64,000 bases of DNA from Lachnospiraceae bacterium (GTDB lineage Bacteria > Bacillota > Clostridia > Lachnospirales > Lachnospiraceae): assembly GCA_900199595.1 (NCBI GenBank), contig FZRB01000014.1, positions 40,091-104,090 of the forward strand, read 5' to 3'. Below the pieces are notes generated by a model that had not been told where the DNA came from, did not search any database, and saw only the letters and a list, made by a program, of their open reading frames with translations. Below, one piece after another: positions 5,358 through 34,040 of the stretch. The translations under genes and the position numbers were made by a program. Positions within the stretch are counted from its first letter, which is position 1, and the number at the start of each line of letters is the position of its first letter.

Positions 5358-5480
5358 ACATACGCTTTCCAATCAATCCCATCCAGACTTTACTGTCGGC
5401 TTCTGAATCAAACAGAATCAACTGCTTAAGCAGCTCGCGGGCTATACCGCCGGTCGGGAATTTCACCCTGCCCCAAGATT
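5358..5480 (-). promoter_or_regulatory. FMN riboswitch (RFN element)
   Basis: The minus strand carries the highly conserved RFN core: GGGGCAGGGTGAAATTCCCG, then ACCGGCGGTATAGCCCGCGAGC, and a 3' part with AGCCGACAGT and AGTCTGGATGGGA. These are the conserved joining regions that bind FMN. It lies upstream of ribD with an intrinsic terminator in between, the usual transcription-attenuation arrangement. A promoter probably lies in 5481-5515, overlapping the tail of the preceding gene. Confidence 0.97.
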
Positions 5481-5495
5481 ATATAATGTATTTAA

Positions 5496-25196: not shown

Positions 25197-25378
25197 TTGA
25201 CACTTATGACATACGGATTGCTCCATTTCTTACGAAATTCTCGCAATCCTAGAAACATTCGGAAACCGCTGATTTTCCATGAAAATCGCTATTTCCTCAT
25301 GTTTCAGCGTGTCATAAGGTCAAAATGCTTTTCCTGCGAGCAGAAACGCATTTTGACTTTTGACACTTATGTCATAAT
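25197..25378. repeat. Structured intergenic repeat, copy 1
   Basis: The only other copy seen here is at 33853-34040. The element is framed by TTATGACATA (25204-25213) and its reverse complement (25368-25377). Inside, TTATGACA (25204-25211) also pairs with TGTCATAA (25310-25317), enclosing two hairpins: GGATTGC/GCAATCC (25216-25250) and GAAACAT/ATGTTTC (25252-25305, with further inner stems). A third hairpin pairs 25319-25328 with 25348-25357. It fills the gap between the HAD gene and the transporter start. A mobile miniature element or a cis-acting RNA are both possible. Confidence 0.85.
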
Positions 25379-25401
25379 ACCACAATTATCTTTATACTTC
25401 A

Positions 25402-26070
25402 TTAAAAATGTTCAGGATTTAATTCTGTAAAATCTTTTATTTCAGCATACACACCATCCATTGTAATGAGATTTGTGTTCCAGCTGTCACCGGTAACTGC
25501 TATTATATGCTTTACTCCCGCACTATAAGCGGCCTTAACTCCGTCAGTGCTATCTTCAAATACAACAGCCTTGTCAGCCGGAAATCCAAGATTACTTAAC
25601 GCAGCAAGATACATATCAGGATGCGGCTTTAGAGCTATACCGCCAGTTGCAATAACTACATCTTCCCACCTAAACCATCTGTCAAGCTCATATCTTTCAA
25701 AATACATATTCATATTCCCCAGGTCAGCGGTTGATGCAATGGTTCTGGGGATCTGTGCCAGAAGCAGATAATTAAAGAAGTTCTTTAATCCCGGAGCCAA
25801 TGGAACATCATCTTTTTTAATCAGGTTCCTATAGACACGTTCTTTTTCCTCTGACAGTTGTTCAAGCATTGATTGGCTTATTTCATATCCAAGAAAATGT
25901 TCAAGTATTTCCTTGGGTGTTTTTCCGGTTATCCAGAAGGATACTTCTTTATCGGATACCGGTTTTAATGTCAGTTCCTCTATATAAATCTGCCATGCTT
26001 TATTGTGATATTTCCTGTCAAATATGCATGTTCCGTTGAAATCAAAGATTACTGCAATATCCTTATTCAC
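25402..26070 (-). CDS. HAD-superfamily hydrolase (beta-phosphoglucomutase-like)
   Basis: The 222-residue protein carries motif I as FDFNGT, in which the second Asp of the usual DxD is Asn. It also has the helical cap region, motif II in TIASTADLG, and motif III/IV as KPHPDMY and VFEDSTDGVKAAYSAG. These are typical of the beta-PGM-like phosphatase subfamily. The substrate is unknown. The start is GTG behind GGAAGG, 8 bases after the glycosyltransferase gene, so the two are likely one transcript with the pot genes upstream. Confidence 0.85.
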   Translation of the reverse strand: MNKDIAVIFDFNGTCIFDRKYHNKAWQIYIEELTLKPVSDKEVSFWITGKTPKEILEHFLGYEISQSMLEQLSEEKERVYRNLIKKDDVPLAPGLKNFFNYLLLAQIPRTIASTADLGNMNMYFERYELDRWFRWEDVVIATGGIALKPHPDMYLAALSNLGFPADKAVVFEDSTDGVKAAYSAGVKHIIAVTGDSWNTNLITMDGVYAEIKDFTELNPEHF

Positions 26071-26078
26071 AAACTTTA

Positions 26079-26894
26079 CTACCTTCCTGACTTAAGCTCA
26101 ATCATAAATCTTCTTTTTAAAAGAGCCATTCTGCAAAACATCTTGCTTCGTCCAGTTATCTCACAATACTTTTCAAAATCCTTTTTATATATATGATAAC
26201 GTCTGATCAATACTCTTTTATCAACTTTTGTTCTGCCTGAAAAACTCTGTGTAATCTTATAATTAATTACATTAACCCTGCATAGTCCATGACGCATAAG
26301 TTCATAAGCCATGGTATAGTCAATCATATCAAGAAAAAGCTCTTCATTGAAGCCATTAACCTTAAGAATTGAATCAAGGCGAATCGCCGTTCCGCTGTTT
26401 ATAAATGTAATATCTTCATATATACCGGGCTTTGTTATATAATCACTGGCTTTATATCTAAATCTATAGCCTTTTGTAGGAGACATAGGTACTGTACCTG
26501 ATGTGACCATACCCGTTATTATATTTATATGATTTGAAGAATGCGCCTCGATTTCTGCAGTTTTATATATTTTATCAAGATATTCATAAGGAACTTCAGT
26601 ATCATCATCTAAAAATAATATAAAATCATTAGTGAAATCCTTACTGATATGTTTTGCATAATTCACCGCCTTATTATATGCCTTAGACAATCCAAGGTTT
26701 TTATTGTTCTTTATATAGGCTATTCCTTCATCAGAAATAAATTTATTTTCAGATTTGATATTTCTATCAGAATTATCAATAATAATAACTCTTACGTGAT
26801 CCAGGTCATACTGCTCACGTAATTTCTGAATAGACTTCTTAGAAGCGATATCCTCGGATTTTTTATTGTATATTACTATTGCAATAAATAACAT
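26079..26894 (-). CDS. Family 2 glycosyltransferase
   Basis: The protein (271 residues) has the GT-A start FIAIVIYNK, the NKNLGLSKAYNKAVNYA nucleotide-sugar segment and the DXD-type FLDDDTEVP. This resembles rhamnosyltransferase-like GT2 enzymes that build surface polysaccharides. No membrane helix is evident. It lies 27 bases downstream of potCD and may be co-transcribed, though its link with polyamine uptake is unclear. Confidence 0.85.
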   Translation of the reverse strand: MLFIAIVIYNKKSEDIASKKSIQKLREQYDLDHVRVIIIDNSDRNIKSENKFISDEGIAYIKNNKNLGLSKAYNKAVNYAKHISKDFTNDFILFLDDDTEVPYEYLDKIYKTAEIEAHSSNHINIITGMVTSGTVPMSPTKGYRFRYKASDYITKPGIYEDITFINSGTAIRLDSILKVNGFNEELFLDMIDYTMAYELMRHGLCRVNVINYKITQSFSGRTKVDKRVLIRRYHIYKKDFEKYCEITGRSKMFCRMALLKRRFMIELKSGR

Positions 26895-26921
26895 AATCCC
26901 ACCCTTATTAATGGAATAGAT

Positions 26922-28748
26922 TTAATATGCTTTTATTTTTGTCCAAAGATCAGCATAATATTCTTTTATATCTTTTTCCTGATATCTGAACACTTCATTA
27001 TTAGGAGCCCCAAATACAGGAGTATAAGAATTGATTCCGGCAAATTCTTCCTTTTCCAGATCCTCTCTTACCTGTGTTACAGGAGTTGTATAGCCTACAA
27101 AAATAGAATTCTGGTACACATTATCATACTCAAGCATATAATCCATAAAGCTTTCAGCAAGCTGAGTATCTTCACAATTTTTCGTCAGAACCATGGCATC
27201 ACACCATTCATTAGTTCCTTCTTCAGGATCAAAATAACCAAGGTCTTCATTTTCAGCCATAATATATGCGCCATCTCCTGAATATACAACGGCAATGGAC
27301 TTATTTCCGGCAATCATATTATCCATTACATCATCACCGGCATATACAACATCCATTGTTTCACGCTGCTTAATAAGCCATTCATAAGCTTCGTCTATCT
27401 CTTCTTTATTAGTTGTATTCATTGAATAGCCAAGAGCCTTAAGAGCTATCATGAAGCTGTCTCTTTCCGAATCATACATATAGATATCACCGGCGTATTT
27501 TTCATTTCTAAGAATTTCCCAGCCATCCTTCAGATCTTCTTCATCTACATTATTTTTATCATACAAAATACCGACAGTGCCAACAAAATACGGAACAGAA
27601 TATGTATTATCAGGATCAAAGGCATAACCCATATTTTCAGTATCTATATCACCTTTGTGTGTGATCAGCGACCAGTCAACAGGCTGTAATTCCTTTTCCT
27701 TTATAAGTCTTTCTATCATGTAATCACTTATAATAAGAATATCAAATTCAGAACCACTCTTCAGCTTTGTATACATTGATTCATTGGAATCAAATGTTTC
27801 ATATATGACACTACAGTCATATTCTTCTTCAAACCGGGTTATCAGTTCAGGGTCCATATACTCTCCGGAATTGAATATCCTAAGAGTCTTTTTACCACTT
27901 TTCACACCTGAAAAAACAGTTAATCCAAGTACAAGTACCAGACCCAATATAGTTATTTTTCTTACCGTGCTCTTAAGCATGGCCGGAATAAGTCTGGATA
28001 AAATAATCAGAAGAGCTATAACCAGAATAACTATAGTTGAGAGCGCATTTATAGTAGGATTAGTTCTTTTGGTCATATTATAGACAACTATGGATATATT
28101 TTCCACACCGTTGCCTGTTACAAAATACGATATGACAAAATCATCAAAGCTCATGGTAAATGAAAGAAGAATTCCTGCATATATACCATCCTTAAGAAGC
28201 GGAATAATGATTTTTATAAGAGCCTGAAATGGAGTAGCACCAAGATCCATGGCTGCATCAGCTATACTTGGATCCAGCTGTCTTACCTTTGGATATACCG
28301 AGGTAATTACATAAGGAGTACAAAATGCCACATGGGCCAGCAGCATGGTCATATATCCCTTTGCTATCATAATAGATGAAAATAGAATCATAAGACCTAT
28401 TGCCGTCACTATATCTGGATTCATAATAGGAATATTGTTTACTCCCTGAACAATATCCTTCATTATTTTTCTGCTTTTAGACAAACCTATAGCAGTCATT
28501 GTACCGAGTACAGTTGATATCACTGTTGCAAAAATAGCAATAGTAAGTGATACATATACAGCTCTCATTATTGATCCATCTGATATAAGTCTTTCATACC
28601 ATCTGAGTGAAAATCCGGTCATGTTAGTAAGACTTTTGGAAGAATTGAAAGAAAATACCATCGTAACTACGATAGGAAGATAAAAGAATATAAAGAGGCA
28701 GGCTATATAAATAATATAAAGTGCCTTATGTTTGTTATTACTTTGCAT
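26922..28748 (-). CDS. potCD: Polyamine ABC transporter PotC-PotD fusion (permease and binding protein)
   Basis: The first 265 residues or so are a PotC-type permease with six helices and the EAA-like loop DAAMDLGATPFQALIKIIIP. A further membrane helix (around 270-290) tethers a PotD-type spermidine/putrescine-binding domain outside the cell (residues about 295-608; LRIFNSGEYMDPELI, VPYFVGTVGILYD). Such fusions remove the need for a separate lipoprotein. The ATG at 28748 has AGGAGG 7 bases upstream and overlaps the end of potB by 11 bases. Confidence 0.93.
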   Translation of the reverse strand: MQSNNKHKALYIIYIACLFIFFYLPIVVTMVFSFNSSKSLTNMTGFSLRWYERLISDGSIMRAVYVSLTIAIFATVISTVLGTMTAIGLSKSRKIMKDIVQGVNNIPIMNPDIVTAIGLMILFSSIMIAKGYMTMLLAHVAFCTPYVITSVYPKVRQLDPSIADAAMDLGATPFQALIKIIIPLLKDGIYAGILLSFTMSFDDFVISYFVTGNGVENISIVVYNMTKRTNPTINALSTIVILVIALLIILSRLIPAMLKSTVRKITILGLVLVLGLTVFSGVKSGKKTLRIFNSGEYMDPELITRFEEEYDCSVIYETFDSNESMYTKLKSGSEFDILIISDYMIERLIKEKELQPVDWSLITHKGDIDTENMGYAFDPDNTYSVPYFVGTVGILYDKNNVDEEDLKDGWEILRNEKYAGDIYMYDSERDSFMIALKALGYSMNTTNKEEIDEAYEWLIKQRETMDVVYAGDDVMDNMIAGNKSIAVVYSGDGAYIMAENEDLGYFDPEEGTNEWCDAMVLTKNCEDTQLAESFMDYMLEYDNVYQNSIFVGYTTPVTQVREDLEKEEFAGINSYTPVFGAPNNEVFRYQEKDIKEYYADLWTKIKAY

Positions 28749-29574
28749 CCAATTCCTCCTTTTCTTCCTTATCAAAACGTTTCATTATTGATAAGCCGAT
28801 AAGGATTATCAAAGTAAGAATAATAGATGTTGCAGAACCAAAATTCCAATTACCAACAGAAATAAACTGATTTTCAATAAGATTTCCAATCAGCATATAT
28901 TGTCCTCCACCGAGAAGTTTAGGTATAACGAATGTAGAGATCGACAAAAGAAATGTCATCATAATACCATTTATAACTCCTGGAATTGACATCTTTAATA
29001 TTACATTTACAAATGTCTGAAATCCATTAGCTCCGAGATCATGAGAAGCCTCAATAAGTGAAGGATCTATTTTTCTTATGGACGTATGAATAGGTATAAC
29101 CATAAAAGGAAGAATATCACTAATAAGACCTATAAGAACAGCAAAATCTGTATACATGAAATTCTGAGGAGTACATCCAAACAATCCAAGAAATCTGTTA
29201 ATAAGACCGTTGTCAGATAACAGACTGATCCAGGCATAAGTTCTGAGAAGTGTATTGATCCACATAGGTATTGTAACCAGAAGAATCAACAGATCCTGTG
29301 TAGAATCATTAAATCTTGTAATGAAATAAGCAAGAATATATCCAAGTACAAGACAGATAAGAACAGATATAAGACCTAATGAAAAAGATTTTTTCATTAC
29401 GTCAAGATATATAGGTTCACCTATCTTCTTGAAATTATCAAGAGTAAACTGGATATTAACAAGTTCATTGCCACCGGTTGTAAAAGAATATAGTACTATG
29501 AGAAGCAAAGGTACTAATACAATTATAATAGACCAGATTAAATAAGGTCTGGTGAGTTTAGTATAATGTTTCAT
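28738..29574 (-). CDS. potB: Spermidine/putrescine ABC transporter permease
   Basis: This 278-residue protein has six predicted helices and the cytoplasmic loop EASHDLGANGFQTFVNVILKMSIPG, part of the EAA motif that contacts PotA. Length and sequence match PotB. It pairs with the PotC half of the downstream fusion. A long hairpin lies in the gap between potA and this gene. Confidence 0.93.
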   Translation of the reverse strand: MKHYTKLTRPYLIWSIIIVLVPLLLIVLYSFTTGGNELVNIQFTLDNFKKIGEPIYLDVMKKSFSLGLISVLICLVLGYILAYFITRFNDSTQDLLILLVTIPMWINTLLRTYAWISLLSDNGLINRFLGLFGCTPQNFMYTDFAVLIGLISDILPFMVIPIHTSIRKIDPSLIEASHDLGANGFQTFVNVILKMSIPGVINGIMMTFLLSISTFVIPKLLGGGQYMLIGNLIENQFISVGNWNFGSATSIILTLIILIGLSIMKRFDKEEKEELDAK

Positions 29575-29598
29575 TTAATAATATCTCCCAAATCAAGC

Positions 29599-29678
29599 AG
29601 CAGAATCTTGTAAGGATATATGTCAGACTATTAATCTTGCAAGCAAGAATAGTCAGTCATATAATCTGAAATTCTGCT
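29599..29678 (-). repeat. Long hairpin between potA and potB
   Basis: Nested stems pair 29599-29606 with 29671-29678, 29617-29622 with 29658-29663, 29626-29632 with 29648-29654 and 29636-29640 with 29643-29647. No long T-run follows, so it is more likely an mRNA processing or stability element, or an attenuator, than a strong terminator. The loop 14-mer CTTGCAAGCAAGAA is shared with the structured repeat at 33853-34040. Confidence 0.65.
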
Positions 29679-29686
29679 TTAAGTAG

Positions 29687-30745
29687 TTACCACTCCATCG
29701 GATACATGACGTGAATATCATCAGGTCCGAATTTAAGACCGACTTTCAAACCTGGTTCATAATAATCGGTTGTATGAATTAGATAATCTCTGTCAGGGGT
29801 TTCAACAACTATTTCATGGTGAACTCCCTTAAATATAATAGACTTAACTATTCCTTTAACCTTTGCATCTTTTGGTTTTACTATATCTATATCTTCGGGA
29901 CGAATAACGACCTCAACCGCCTCATTATTCTTAAAGCCTTTATCTACACATTCAAAATCTTCTCCATCAAAGGATACAAGCAGATCTTTCTTCATTACTG
30001 CTTCGATAATATTTGAATCTCCGATAAAGCTTGCTACAAATCTGTTTTCCGGTTCATTATATATATCTTCAGGCGTACCAACCTGCTGGATTATTCCTTC
30101 ATTCATTACTACTACTGTATCACTCATGGAAAGTGCTTCTTCCTGATCATGTGTAACAAATATAAAGGTAATACCAACTTCTTTCTGTATTTTCTTAAGC
30201 TCTGTCTGCATGTCTTTTCTCAGCTTGGCATCCAGAGCACCTAAAGGCTCATCCAGAAGAAGAACCTTGGGTTCATTAACCAATGCTCTAGCAATAGCAA
30301 CTCTCTGCTGCTGTCCACCGGACAGACTTGTTATATCTCTTTTGGAATAACCGTCCAGTCCGACAAGCTCTAACATTGCAGTAACCTTATGATCTATTAT
30401 GGTTTTATCCATTTTTTTAATTTTCAGACCAAAGGCAACATTATCATATACATTCAGAAATGGAAAAAGAGCATATTTCTGAAAAATAGTATTAACCTCT
30501 CTTTTGTATGCAGGAATTTTAGTAATATCTATACCCTCAAACAGAACTTCTCCACCGGAAGGTTCTTCAAAACCTGCAATTATTCTCAGTGTGGTTGTTT
30601 TTCCACAGCCTGAAGGACCTAACAGCGTTAAGAATTCATTTTCATGAATAGTAAGATCTATACCTTTCAGAACCTGTTGATCTTCATAGTTTTTTGTAAG
30701 TCCTTTTAACTCTATAATTGCAGTTCTTTTTTCATGTTCACTCAT
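29687..30745 (-). CDS. potA: Spermidine/putrescine ABC transporter ATP-binding protein
   Basis: PotA hydrolyses ATP for uptake. It shows Walker [10 protein letters not shown], the Q loop, signature [15 protein letters not shown], Walker [12 protein letters not shown] and the switch His in [11 protein letters not shown]-terminal TOBE domain follows ([12 protein letters not shown]). From the ATG at 30745 it is 352 residues; the in-frame sequence upstream contributes residues without family support. It has its own promoter at 30799-30827. Confidence 0.95.
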
Positions 30746-30798
30746 ATAAATGCTCCAATACCATAAAAACATTTTTGTTTACAAAACAATCGTTCGTA

Positions 30799-30827
30799 AT
30801 TTTATCAAATTTTAAATAATATAGCAA
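30799..30827 (-). promoter_or_regulatory. Promoter of the pot operon
   Basis: On the minus strand TTGCTA (30827-30822) and TAAAAT (30804-30799) are 17 bases apart, and the -10 is preceded by TGA, an extended -10 feature. It lies just after a terminator and about 54 bases before the potA ATG. Confidence 0.7.
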
Positions 30828-30862
30828 TAAAAAAAGGTCTGTCGTATGAATCAACAAACCTT
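30828..30862 (-). terminator. Terminator after the pseudopilin genes
   Basis: On the minus strand AAGGTTTGT pairs with ACAGACCTT (one G-T pair) around an 11-base loop and is followed by seven T. It closes the pilin transcript and insulates potA. Confidence 0.85.
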
Positions 30863-30887
30863 ATATATATCATAATGAATGTAACAA

Positions 30888-31517
30888 TTATGGCTGATCT
30901 CTGGCAACATCGTTAGGTGTTGTTAAGGCATTGTATCTTGGGTCAACATGTGGCCATATCATATATGCATGACGGGTACTGCCCTGTCCATTATAATCTC
31001 CATTTGAATCAAGATTCCAAACCGAATTATTTACATGACCTCCAACAAAGACATATAGATTATAATTTTTATCTACACATATCAGCCACTGATCCAGATC
31101 AGCAGGCTTGTTAAACTTAGGTTTGACAACGGATTTACCCATTAATTCGCCCATAATTCTTCCTACTTCCGTATTTGCCTCACTATAAATATTATTATCT
31201 AACCCGGATAAGGCATTTAACCTGAAAGCATTCATCTGAGTACCGGCACTCATATAAGTAATTAATCTATAAGTCTTACTTGCTGATCCAAAATCCGAAT
31301 CCATCCCAACAGAATATGTTATATATTCATAAATAGATTCATTTTCAGTCATTGCAGCACCAATCATTGTTCCTAAAGAATCACCAAATGCTATATCGTC
31401 AGCCTTACGTGATTTATTAATATATCTGATAAGAGCTGGAGCAATAGACGCAGCAAGAATAGCCATGATTGCTATAACAATAATTAATTCAACTAATGAA
31501 AACCCTTTATCTTTCAC
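30888..31517 (-). CDS. Prepilin-like protein with type IV N-terminal methylation motif
   Basis: The 209-residue protein begins KDKGFSLVELIIVIAIMAIL, a type III signal sequence: a short basic leader, Gly before Phe at the cleavage site, Glu at +5 of the mature protein, and a hydrophobic stem helix. The rest is a globular pilin head. The start is GTG. It is the second gene of a pair under a c-di-GMP riboswitch. No prepilin peptidase, ATPase or platform gene is in the window, so the assembly machine must be elsewhere. Confidence 0.85.
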   Translation of the reverse strand: MKDKGFSLVELIIVIAIMAILAASIAPALIRYINKSRKADDIAFGDSLGTMIGAAMTENESIYEYITYSVGMDSDFGSASKTYRLITYMSAGTQMNAFRLNALSGLDNNIYSEANTEVGRIMGELMGKSVVKPKFNKPADLDQWLICVDKNYNLYVFVGGHVNNSVWNLDSNGDYNGQGSTRHAYMIWPHVDPRYNALTTPNDVARDQP

Positions 31518-31577
31518 TTTTTTAACCCCTAAAAATGTGACACTCGTTTATAGAATTCTGTGTCACATTTATGCTTG

Positions 31578-32297
31578 TTATTTATATTCAGATGCACAAT
31601 CAGGATAAATCCTGCAAACAGGGTAATTGCTTCCACCCTTCTTTTTATAGCCAACCCAGATCTCCGGATTACCATTATCCTGTCTTCTATATATCTGCCA
31701 GCATTCAGGCTTATACTCCTGTCCGCCATCCATAATTTTCTTATTATATCTGTATTTCATTACAAGCCCATCTTTACTATCAAAGTTTCTTAATTTATTA
31801 GTACCTCCCCTGGCAGATTCCTGAGCCATACAATATAGCATTTCATCAGTAAAAGCCCTTTGTTTGTCACCATCTTTACCAGTATCCAACGAGCTTTTGA
31901 ACAAAACATTTTCATATGTCTCACCATCTTTGTTCATGTAAGCAGCGCCTCTGGACCATGCTACAAGCCTTATCTCATAATATCCTTTATTCTTTAAACT
32001 ATTATTAATTTTGCCGCTTGAATAATAATGTCCATCAGGAGTTACTACGTATGTACCGGCATAATTCTTTATTCCTCCGCAAACACTCCACCCATCATAT
32101 GCAGCATCATTGCCACTGGTCATAGCAAGCTCTACAGCATAATAAATAGTCTGTGCAGTCTGCACATCCATAGCCTTTTTTGACTTATCTATATATCTGA
32201 TAATTGCAGGCACTATAGCGGCAGAAAGTATCGAAATAATTGCTATTACTATTATCAGTTCCACCAGGGTAAAACCTTTATCATTCTTTTTTATCAT
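31578..32297 (-). CDS. Prepilin-like protein, first of a tandem pair
   Basis: The 239-residue protein starts with KKNDKGFTLVELIIVIAII, a clear prepilin cleavage/methylation motif with Glu5 and a stem helix. The N-terminal 40 residues are very close to those of the downstream pilin gene (both continue IRYI[D/N]KS[K/R]KA), while the heads differ. It is probably assembled into a type IV pilus or pseudopilus. GGAGA precedes the ATG. Expression should depend on the c-di-GMP-I riboswitch immediately upstream. Confidence 0.87.
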   Translation of the reverse strand: MIKKNDKGFTLVELIIVIAIISILSAAIVPAIIRYIDKSKKAMDVQTAQTIYYAVELAMTSGNDAAYDGWSVCGGIKNYAGTYVVTPDGHYYSSGKINNSLKNKGYYEIRLVAWSRGAAYMNKDGETYENVLFKSSLDTGKDGDKQRAFTDEMLYCMAQESARGGTNKLRNFDSKDGLVMKYRYNKKIMDGGQEYKPECWQIYRRQDNGNPEIWVGYKKKGGSNYPVCRIYPDCASEYK

Positions 32298-32317
32298 ACT
32301 GGGTCTCCGAATAATGT

Positions 32318-32355
32318 AAAAAAATACTTGAAAGCTATTCTACCAGCCTTCAAGT
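32318..32355 (-). terminator. Expression-platform terminator of the c-di-GMP riboswitch
   Basis: On the minus strand ACTTGAAGGCT pairs with AGCTTTCAAGT (one mismatch or bulge) around a short loop and is followed by ATTTTTTT. It lies between the aptamer and the first pilin gene. Whether c-di-GMP favours or prevents its formation cannot be decided by eye. Confidence 0.85.
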
Positions 32356-32357
32356 AA

Positions 32358-32460
32358 GTATCGGTTGCAACTGGCTACCTTGGTTTATATAAGCTCTCAC
32401 CCCTATGAAAAACCAAGGTCCTATAGCTTTGCGTCACAGAATCACTTCTGCTTTGCCTAT
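32358..32460 (-). promoter_or_regulatory. Cyclic di-GMP-I riboswitch (GEMM-I)
   Basis: The minus strand contains the conserved GEMM-I landmarks in order: GGCAAAGC (32457-32450), the GACGCAAAGC core, an ACCTTGG...CCAAGGT stem, and GGTAGCCAGTTGC at the 3' side. These are the two paired domains whose junction binds c-di-GMP. It is followed by an intrinsic terminator and a prepilin gene. GEMM riboswitches commonly control pilus, motility and adhesion genes. Confidence 0.92.
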
Positions 32461-32476
32461 TAAACATATATGTGAC

Positions 32477-32540
32477 ATTTTAACATACTTTTTCATTGTT
32501 ATCAATATAAACATATAATAAATCAATGAAAAAGTATGTT
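32477..32540 (-). promoter_or_regulatory. Promoter of the pilin operon with overlapping 17-bp inverted repeat
   Basis: On the minus strand TTGATA (32505-32500) and TAAAAT (32482-32477) are 17 bases apart. A perfect inverted repeat of 17 bp (32482-32498 and 32524-32540, gap 25) has one arm filling the spacer between the two boxes and touching the -10. A protein bound there would block or remodel the promoter. It is not followed by a T-run, so a terminator is less likely. Confidence 0.65.
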
Positions 32541-32575
32541 ATTTTTGTAAATAATTAACAATATTGATAAATAAA

Positions 32576-33832
32576 TTAATATTTCATAGGTCTGCCAAGC
32601 AGCGATCCATCTTCAAACATATAATTGGTATCCCTGGCTGCCCATGTAGGACTAAAGCAGGCCTGACCATCAGAATATACATAGTGACAGAAATATCCGG
32701 TAAACATCTCAACATGATATATATCAGCATACTTCTTTTTCATACTACTGGATTTAAATAACAAATCTCCTGGATTTATAGTCATCTTCTCGATTTTCTT
32801 ATATGTAATGCCACCCTTTACCATACGCTTATGATCACGACACCAGAAAGCTTCATAATCCGCTGTAGCAGGCCAACCTGTATATCCAAAGTTTATTCCT
32901 GCTTTTTCGTTATAGGCTTTCCATACAAGAGCACTGCAGTCATAATAACCACTGAGATTACGTTTTTCCTGACTATAGGTCCAGTGAGTGCCCATATAAG
33001 TAGCACGCTTGGCAACATTTCGGATTTTCTTTGTAGTTACAGAAACTGCACATCCTAAATAACTATCGCCTACTTTAGCTGTGATAATAACATTACCTAT
33101 CTTTTTACCTTTTACAACACCTTTTTTACTTACAGTTGCTATTTTAGGATTACTTGATTTCCATACAATTTTCCCATTATAACCTGTTACTTTCAGTTTT
33201 TTACTCTTTCCCTTTACAAGAAGATATGACTGGTCAGATATTCCCAGTTTTTTTGTTGTCATTTTAACTGTAAACTCTTTTCCATAAATCTTTATTGTAA
33301 GAGTTGTTTTTCCGGTATTTGGTTTTTTCTTATATGTCTGATATATATGTAATTTATTATCACTTACATATGCATTCACTTTTATTTTGCTGTTACTGCT
33401 TTTACAAGAAAAGTTTTCACCATAAACATAGTCTAAATCAAAATCAGCATTAATTGGAATTTCTACTGTATCTGTTGAATAAGATGTTTTAGCTCTGTAA
33501 TAATATTGAGGATAAAGGTATGAAGTAACATTATAAGAAGCAAGAGTAACATTCGTCATGTCAATAGGCTTTTCCTCTTCGCTCTCTTCCTGTTCTTCAG
33601 GATTATCCTGATTATCTTGATTATCTTGATTTTCCTGATTTTCATTATTATTTTCATTGTCATCATAATAAAAATAATAATCGTCTTCATCAGTATCATC
33701 ATAATCAGTAAAATTAAAGTATGGATCAGCAGGATTTTCATCAGTTGTATCAGCAAATGAAACAGAATTTCCTATTATAAGCGAAATACTTAACAATAAT
33801 GATAAAAATACTTTAAATATCTTTCTATTCAT
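32576..33832 (-). CDS. Secreted Big2-NlpC/P60-like protein
   Basis: The 418-residue protein has a signal peptide (residues 1-28), then an acidic Asp/Asn/Glu/Gln-rich linker, a beta-rich region, and a Big2-type Ig-like module (WKSSNPKIATVSKKGVVKG). The C-terminal domain is NlpC/P60-like, with a catalytic Cys in YYDCSALVWKAY, PGDLLF and a His in DIYHVEMF. It may cleave peptidoglycan stem peptides. The ATG at 33832 has GGAGGA upstream; the open frame beyond it runs into the structured repeat and is not used. Confidence 0.82.
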   Translation of the reverse strand: MNRKIFKVFLSLLLSISLIIGNSVSFADTTDENPADPYFNFTDYDDTDEDDYYFYYDDNENNNENQENQDNQDNQDNPEEQEESEEEKPIDMTNVTLASYNVTSYLYPQYYYRAKTSYSTDTVEIPINADFDLDYVYGENFSCKSSNSKIKVNAYVSDNKLHIYQTYKKKPNTGKTTLTIKIYGKEFTVKMTTKKLGISDQSYLLVKGKSKKLKVTGYNGKIVWKSSNPKIATVSKKGVVKGKKIGNVIITAKVGDSYLGCAVSVTTKKIRNVAKRATYMGTHWTYSQEKRNLSGYYDCSALVWKAYNEKAGINFGYTGWPATADYEAFWCRDHKRMVKGGITYKKIEKMTINPGDLLFKSSSMKKKYADIYHVEMFTGYFCHYVYSDGQACFSPTWAARDTNYMFEDGSLLGRPMKY

Positions 33833-33852
33833 AATCGTCCTCCTCGCATTTT

Positions 33853-34040
33853 GACTTTTGACACCATATGACATACGGATTGCTCCATTGCTAAAGCAAT
33901 TCTCGCAATCCTAGAAACATTCGGAAACCGCTAATTTTCTACGAAAATTGCTATTTCCTCATGTTTCAGCGTGTCATAAAGTCAACAAGCTTTTCTTGCA
34001 AGCAAGAACGCTTTTTGACTTTTGACACTTATGTCATTAT
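33853..34040. repeat. Structured intergenic repeat, copy 2
   Basis: About nine in ten positions match copy 1 at 25197-25378, in the same orientation. Differences fall in stems and mostly keep pairing: ATTTC/GAAAT becomes ATTGC/GCAAT, GCTGATTTTC/GAAAATCGC becomes GCTAATTTTC/GAAAATTGC, and CTGC/GCAG becomes CTTGC/GCAAG. Like copy 1 it lies just upstream of a minus-strand gene. To its left it also has TTTTGACTTTTGACAC, the sequence normally found at the right end, as if a second right end abuts it. Confidence 0.85.

Follow-up and report, generated by a model that had tools for sequence, protein, structure and literature searches.

Copies of the Clostridiales-1 RNA in Lachnospiraceae as probable mobile elements with a structured RNA body

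Two copies of the Clostridiales-1 RNA and their neighbours

The stretch analysed here, called the window, comprises 64,000 nucleotides of a Lachnospiraceae bacterium (assembly GCA_900199595.1, contig FZRB01000014.1, positions 40,091 to 104,090), whose genome is available as 3.49 Mb in 47 contigs. It holds two copies of a structured element of about 180 bases, which an initial annotation made from the letters alone had described as similarly oriented and agreeing at about nine of ten positions; BLAST gives 90% identity over 183 query positions, with shared orientation. Both copies match the Clostridiales-1 RNA of Rfam (RF01699) over the whole model (1-166) on the minus strand and far above the gathering score of 48 bits. 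Copy 1 lies at 25207..25374 (119 bits with Rfam, 182.4 bits with our own model R1) and copy 2 at 33869..34036 (120.2 and 189.6 bits, respectively). As both copies belong to a family in Rfam, the RNA is not new, contrary to one of the initial suggestions. Clostridiales-1 was listed by Weinberg et al. in 2010 in a table that marks it as RNA yes, cis no (PMC2864571), and Rfam files it as 'Gene; sRNA' (small RNA). In many Lachnospiraceae, as judged from sequence comparisons, RF01699 behaves as a mobile element, which we have not found described in any paper.

Both copies are located just upstream of minus-strand genes, as the initial annotation had it. Copy 1 precedes a gene for an AI-2E family transporter (PF01594; 23763..25163, minus strand; open reading frame (ORF) list and Pfam) and follows one for a HAD-like hydrolase (25402..26070, minus strand; Pfam); together, these two genes mark the orthologous site in relatives. 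Copy 2 precedes a gene for a Big_2 domain protein (32576..33832, minus strand; Pfam scan run on 32576-33829) with a weak, sub-threshold NlpC/P60 match and, by eye, a signal-like N-terminus. A chance ORF of 105 codons' worth of residues (105 aa) spans copy 1 on the opposite strand.

Distribution and copy number

The source genome contains 25 RF01699 copies above the cut-off of the Rfam model and 54 BLAST matches when fragments are counted, and further copies, for which the initial annotation had proposed a search, are thus plentiful. With the same model, matches were found in 30 of 61 genomes (the source genome and 60 relatives), and in none of 14 control genomes. Within the genus, 28 of 37 genomes have a match, with 0-25 copies per genome. 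In a sample of the class in which at most seven candidates were scored per genome, matches occurred in 16 of 391 genomes, 13 of them above the cut-off, and these represent 12 of the 223 genera; of the 16 genomes listed from the same family, 12 had a match. A core pattern retrieved at least 112 stretches from named genomes, and the records among the matches listed are titled Lachnospiraceae, Clostridiales, Butyrivibrio, Eubacterium, Blautia, Saccharofermentans and others. Tandem copies of RF01699 also occur. We found no description of its mobility in the open-access literature, and no function for it in print.

Ends, target-site duplications and empty sites

Full-length copies do not stop where the Rfam model does; a second end lies some 20-35 nt beyond the 3' end of the model, and the two ends form imperfect inverted repeats of about 19 bp. 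The first end is the 5' end of the RNA and reads TGACATAAGTGTCAAAAGT in the source genus, and the reverse complement of the second end reads TGATGTGGGTGTCAAAAGT. Other subfamilies have their own end pairs, TGATACCAGGGTCAAAAGG with TGATGTTGGGGTCAAAAGT and TGATACAAGGGACAAAAGG with TGATTCGAGCGACAAAAGG. The left inverted repeat also serves as the 5' half of the RNA's closing helix. With up to two mismatches, the end pattern occurs 76 times in the source genome and the reversed control pattern not at all; in five other genomes, the same pattern gave 2-10 matches, near the 1-3 of the reversed control. An end pattern for the other subfamilies had 13-105 matches in six further genomes, with 0-1 for its control. 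Among the matches listed, the end patterns yielded short elements and stray ends in 12 genomes. Elements with flanking duplications are 187-311 bp long. There are also many sites with ends only, namely stray right-end units and palindromic miniature forms of about 40-73 bp.

Six copies of the source genome (L048-L053) have a multi-hairpin insert of about 108 bases in arm P4 of the RNA, which is apparently a module shared between elements. Locus L079 is listed for this insert as well, and a similar one is found in L167 and L285, from two other genomes. In some genomes, by eye, the RNA stops at its closing helix, without these inverted repeats. At six such loci (L336, L341, L342, L347, L350 and L351), the flanks prolong the pairing of the closing helix, P1, for instance with TTTTGCG before and CGCAAAA after the RNA.

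Among the 43 copies with both ends recognised, 21 are flanked by exact duplications of 5 bp and eight by exact duplications of 6 bp. Over 500 shuffled pairings of the flanks, the corresponding means were 2.2 (maximum 7) and 0.24 (maximum 3), and no excess was seen in these 43 copies for sizes of 3, 4 or 7. Flanks were short in 14 of 144 copies, and L113 and L208 have the same flank letters and may represent one site. A looser test on 120 copies, in which 20 of 54 loci lacked a recognised core, found 23 duplications of 5 bp versus 5.0 expected. The duplications of 5-6 bp are mostly TNNNA-like and adjoin TGAY ends; the target preference, TNNNA preceded by A and followed by T, is symmetric.

Copies identical in sequence are found at different places. 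Four copies of genome G008 show no difference over 168 nt, although each lies on a contig of its own and has its own flanks. Window copy 2 matches copies elsewhere in two other genomes at 168 of 168 nt. As for empty sites, the gene pair around copy 1 is kept on one contig in six relatives, and the element is missing in all six. In five of them (G021, G026, G030, G016 and G032), the site was read as empty in the sequence and cmscan gave no Rfam match; in the sixth (G024), a genome without an RF01699 match, the two genes are spaced by 766 instead of 952 bases, i.e. 186 fewer. With inverted ends, 5-6 bp duplications, identical copies elsewhere and empty sites, the initial proposal of a miniature mobile element finds support at the level of the family.

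The two window copies themselves are less complete. Copy 1 was initially thought to be framed by short terminal inverted repeats. Its left repeat, at the 5' end of the RNA (25356..25374, minus strand; G000:C13:65446-65464), is a true end that matches TGACATAAGTGTCAAAAGT exactly; by-eye comparison with full-length copies indicates that the right end survives as a damaged remnant at about 25198..25206 (minus strand). The left repeat of copy 2 lies at 34018..34036 (minus strand; G000:C13:74108-74126), and its right end is altered, with a second partial end in place of GTACTTTTGACACCCACATCA at 33846..33868 (minus strand; same by-eye comparison). As the window copies lack intact right ends and visible duplications, we infer their mobility from the family as a whole, together with the empty sites at copy 1.

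Two genome pairs hold the RNA at what appears to be the same intergenic site. In the first, the copies agree at 127 positions over 160-163, with a P2 stem that has been rewritten and yet still pairs; the product of the downstream gene starts like a saccharopine dehydrogenase. In the second, 118 positions agree over 154-161. Thus, besides being mobile, the RNA can stay at one site for a long time and under structural constraint.

Fold of the RNA and selection on it

The RNA folds on the minus strand into one closing helix and three arms, rather than into the three-way junction plus third hairpin first proposed. On copy 2, the structure on A2 places arm P2, a long hairpin with a CTTG loop, at 33970..34028 (hand-converted coordinates), arm P3, with a tandem GA/GA internal loop, at 33914..33967, and arm P4, with a purine-rich internal loop, at 33877..33911, all on the minus strand. 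The compensatory changes between the two copies that the initial annotation had pointed out (ATTTC/GAAAT to ATTGC/GCAAT, and others) are readable in the two sequences. In an alignment of ten copies, 96% of the pair cells pair, and 27 of the 61 pairs show changes on both sides, versus 13.9 in shuffles, none of 500 of which reached as many. Sliding the pairing partner by 1-3 columns reduced the number of both-side changes to 2-8. Selection on folding is supported for one strand, the minus strand, with a weak G-U signal.

In a larger set (the first 108 of 133 matches, leaving out 25 weaker and mostly antisense ones, which gave 101 distinct rows), 5477 of 5876 pair cells (93%) are Watson-Crick. 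The tandem GA/GA loop of P3 is found in 99 of these 101 rows, a count that is partly built in because 84 rows fit the DNA pattern used for fetching, which contains the GA letters. Among Rfam-model copies that do not fit this pattern, 56 of 65 have the loop, with varying adjoining pairs, as do 15 of 17 in another set found by covariance model; such model-derived rows also favour consensus letters. The purine loop of P4 is conserved. Of the two strands, that of the RNA gives the more stable predicted fold in 41 of 41 divergent copies and in 105 of 106 overall, counts that are not independent because the copies share ancestry. In one copy of the source genome (L044, 1501-1669), TC replaces GA on one side of P3, which converts the loop into pairing letters; this change is likely to reflect a palindrome-correction event.

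Orientation relative to neighbouring genes

Neighbouring genes were called with a simple ORF rule. Of 100 distinct copies, 87 have both neighbours present and do not fall within an ORF call. The downstream gene runs in the direction of the RNA in 66 of these 87 and against it in 21. In named genomes, the RNA shares its direction with the downstream gene in 50 of 67 cases (p = 7e-5) and with the upstream gene in 43 of 66 (p = 0.02), a count that omits 37 copies near locus ends and nine inside ORF calls. For the source genome, the proportion for the downstream gene reaches 21 of 25 (p = 9e-4), with the tandem copies L032 and L053 sharing one downstream gene, and with L035 and L055 counted even though they overlap an ORF call. 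When copies are sorted by their ends, the downstream gene is co-directional in 17 of 24 with duplications, 10 of 13 with both ends and no duplication, and 65 of 82 without a recognised end pair.

The genes downstream of the 25 source-genome copies look functionally unrelated when their translations are inspected by eye. The products include diacylglycerol-kinase-like, ParA, MurG and MurA proteins, Lrp- and TetR-like regulators, a peptidyl-prolyl isomerase and secreted proteins. We also considered promoter targeting, as the 5-bp targets resemble -10 boxes, but rejected it, since no -35-like signal was found before the insertion site (mean match of 2.51 vs 2.49 at control offsets), and the target preference is symmetric.

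Interpretation and alternatives

The simplest single account that would cover insertion, fold and orientation is that of an element akin to a miniature inverted-repeat transposable element (MITE) with a structured RNA body. We propose, with a probability of about 0.6, that the copies are MITE-like elements with an RF01699 body, likely to be moved by a transposase, and that the RNA folds in the mRNA of the downstream gene and acts in cis. Cis action is indirectly supported by the co-directional bias of downstream genes. In mechanistic terms, a DDE-type transposase supplied in trans might move the element, as suggested by its TG...CA ends and the 5-bp duplications. The RNA would then be transcribed with the downstream gene, in its leader or between cistrons, and the closing helix with its three purine-looped arms could alter the processing or stability of the mRNA, or insulate the downstream message. 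Sense insertions would thereby tend to be retained, mainly where they are transcribed before a gene.

Several observations weigh against this reading. The genomes searched, mostly drafts, yielded no autonomous transposon that has these ends, and in drafts multi-copy insertion sequences (ISs) are often broken. Neither window copy has a complete right end or a visible target-site duplication. For the duplication test, 87 of 130 long-flank copies were set aside, 37 without a left and 50 without a right end. Copies of other lineages end at the closing helix without these inverted repeats, and mobility is thus shown for only a part of the family. In the source genome, upstream genes show no bias (13 of 25 co-directional), which means that it is the downstream gene that accounts for the bias in this genome. 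Finally, G-U pairs are few, at 107 (1.8%) versus 62 A-C among the 5876 pair cells, and at 86 versus 60 in another set, made up of 82 distinct rows from the first 85 of 116 matches.

This scarcity of G-U indicates that palindrome correction may have helped make the covariation. Taken further, the elements could be purely DNA-level palindromic MITEs whose covariation stems from template-switch correction of imperfect palindromes, which we consider unlikely. Pair cells that are 93% Watson-Crick and 1.8% G-U fit this idea, as do the 40-73 bp miniature forms, which consist of ends and palindromic stems and little else, and the TC in place of GA in P3 of L044 and in 3 of 65 rows, as correction would give. 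G-U is not above A-C in the middle of P2 (40 vs 46) or in P1 (9 vs 9). However, it exceeds A-C in P4 (27 vs 1), P3 (9 vs 3), the base of P2 (18 vs 2) and its tip (4 vs 1), and the GA/GA loop persists in 56 of 65 copies where correction would erase it. The better folding of the RNA strand in nearly all copies and the orientation bias also argue against a purely DNA-level element.

Slightly less probable still is that RF01699 represents a gene for a free, trans-acting small RNA that is multi-copy by chance. The Rfam type, the 2010 table (PMC2864571) and the conserved loops are in keeping with it. Nevertheless, the absence of a -35-like signal before the insertion site, the co-directional bias of downstream genes and the presence of identical copies at several sites all speak against such a gene.

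Might the RNA serve the element itself? We regard it as doubtful that the fold works in the life cycle of the transposon by setting the site and orientation of insertion or retention, the element spreading as a ready-made structured leader. A separate reading, in which the RNA is a part of the transposition machinery and has no role in host gene expression, seems very improbable. The fold and the inverted ends are indeed carried as one unit, with the left repeat forming the 5' side of the closing helix; yet miniature forms devoid of the RNA core are present at many sites, implying that elements can be present in a genome without it, and we know of no partner enzyme, which counts against this reading as well. 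A riboswitch-like regulator of one pathway is the least credible option: the position before genes and the multi-arm junction with conserved purine loops would suit it, but the downstream genes of the source genome do not seem to share a pathway (by eye, and by Pfam for the window neighbours), and copy numbers range from 0 to 25 across the genus.

If a large part of RF01699 is mobile, as our preferred reading of MITE-like elements with a cis-acting RNA would have it, its copy numbers and patchy spread would be explained, and a search for the targets that a free small RNA would have may test the wrong thing. The family then offers a large natural experiment, with one three-armed RNA placed before many unrelated genes, mostly in sense orientation, and related species with empty sites. 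The effect of a structured leader is thereby directly testable in gut and rumen Lachnospiraceae. More generally, RNA families defined by covariation can hide transposable elements.

Comparison with known repeats

What this work adds to RF01699, relative to the available text of the 2010 paper (PMC2864571), is a second end with inverted repeats, flanking duplications, empty sites and a bias in orientation. Of the hallmarks of MITEs, short length, multiple copies, terminal inverted repeats and target-site duplications are present at the level of the family; at the window copies, the left inverted repeat alone is intact. REP/RAYT-type palindromes are not known to generate target-site duplications, and the duplications found here speak against that class.

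The likeness to other repeats lies in their described features. In the Bacillus cereus group, which are different bacteria, bcr1-bcr18 are short repeats, of which bcr1-3 are described as MITE-like and bcr10 and bcr18 as having a conserved secondary structure; according to the available text, bcr repeats are often transcribed in untranslated regions or between cistrons (PMC3446304). Their mobility has been tied to a TTTAT motif (PMC6542083, in the part available), compared with the TNNNA-like duplications and TGAY ends of the RF01699 element. ERIC of enterobacteria is described as a 127-bp mobile repeat located between co-transcribed genes, with a proposed action on mRNA stability for which orientation is crucial (PMC2229807, in the part available). 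It differs in its TA termini, its 7-bp terminal inverted repeat and its host. Correia/NEMIS and RUP, according to the descriptions available, are similarly non-autonomous, with inverted ends and target-site duplications, and RNase III has been proposed to act on NEMIS RNA; they differ in having TA-type termini. The ends of RUP are reported in such descriptions to resemble IS630-Spn1, whereas no such partner was found for the RF01699 element. The best reading by analogy is that the latter might work like ERIC or bcr repeats.

Search for a mobiliser and carriers

TG...CA ends with 5-bp duplications fit several DDE families. Among ISs, ISAjo2-type elements of the IS1202 family are described, in the available text, as making 5-bp duplications (PMC10132070). 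IS21 elements were rejected as partners, the ends of the element being missing at the nine loci tested. A multi-copy ISNCY-type element of the source genome was also discarded; it begins with GTCATTTTTGATAATGTCC, and its ends differ from those of the element. Four ISNCY-type copies (L319, L322, L325 and L327) are each broken at a contig end (C3, C29, C36 and C20, respectively) and placed after TATAA. Inverted end-like pairs 0.3-6 kb apart were found at 13 loci, and the two inspected (L202 and L148) enclose ordinary genes. The same holds for end pairs 2 kb apart in the source genome, which were dismissed as candidates for an autonomous element.

The core pattern had no match in IMG/VR and none in plasmids. 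Four unannotated human-faecal scaffolds named 'Bacteriophage sp.' match the element at 71-76%, and the two examined carry RF01699 above its cut-off (L317, 1172-1340, 119 bits; L318, 3139-3306, 127 bits). As they are unannotated, these scaffolds cannot prove carriage by phages, and their phage label may be an error for what is host DNA.

Other features of the window

Two riboswitches were found in the window. A cyclic di-guanosine monophosphate (c-di-GMP-I) riboswitch (RF01051, 53.8 bits) lies at 32363-32467 on the minus strand, directly followed downstream by two ORFs with prepilin-like N-termini (31578-32297 and 30888-31517). A flavin mononucleotide (FMN) riboswitch (RF00050, 104.1 bits) is located at 5367-5484 on the minus strand.

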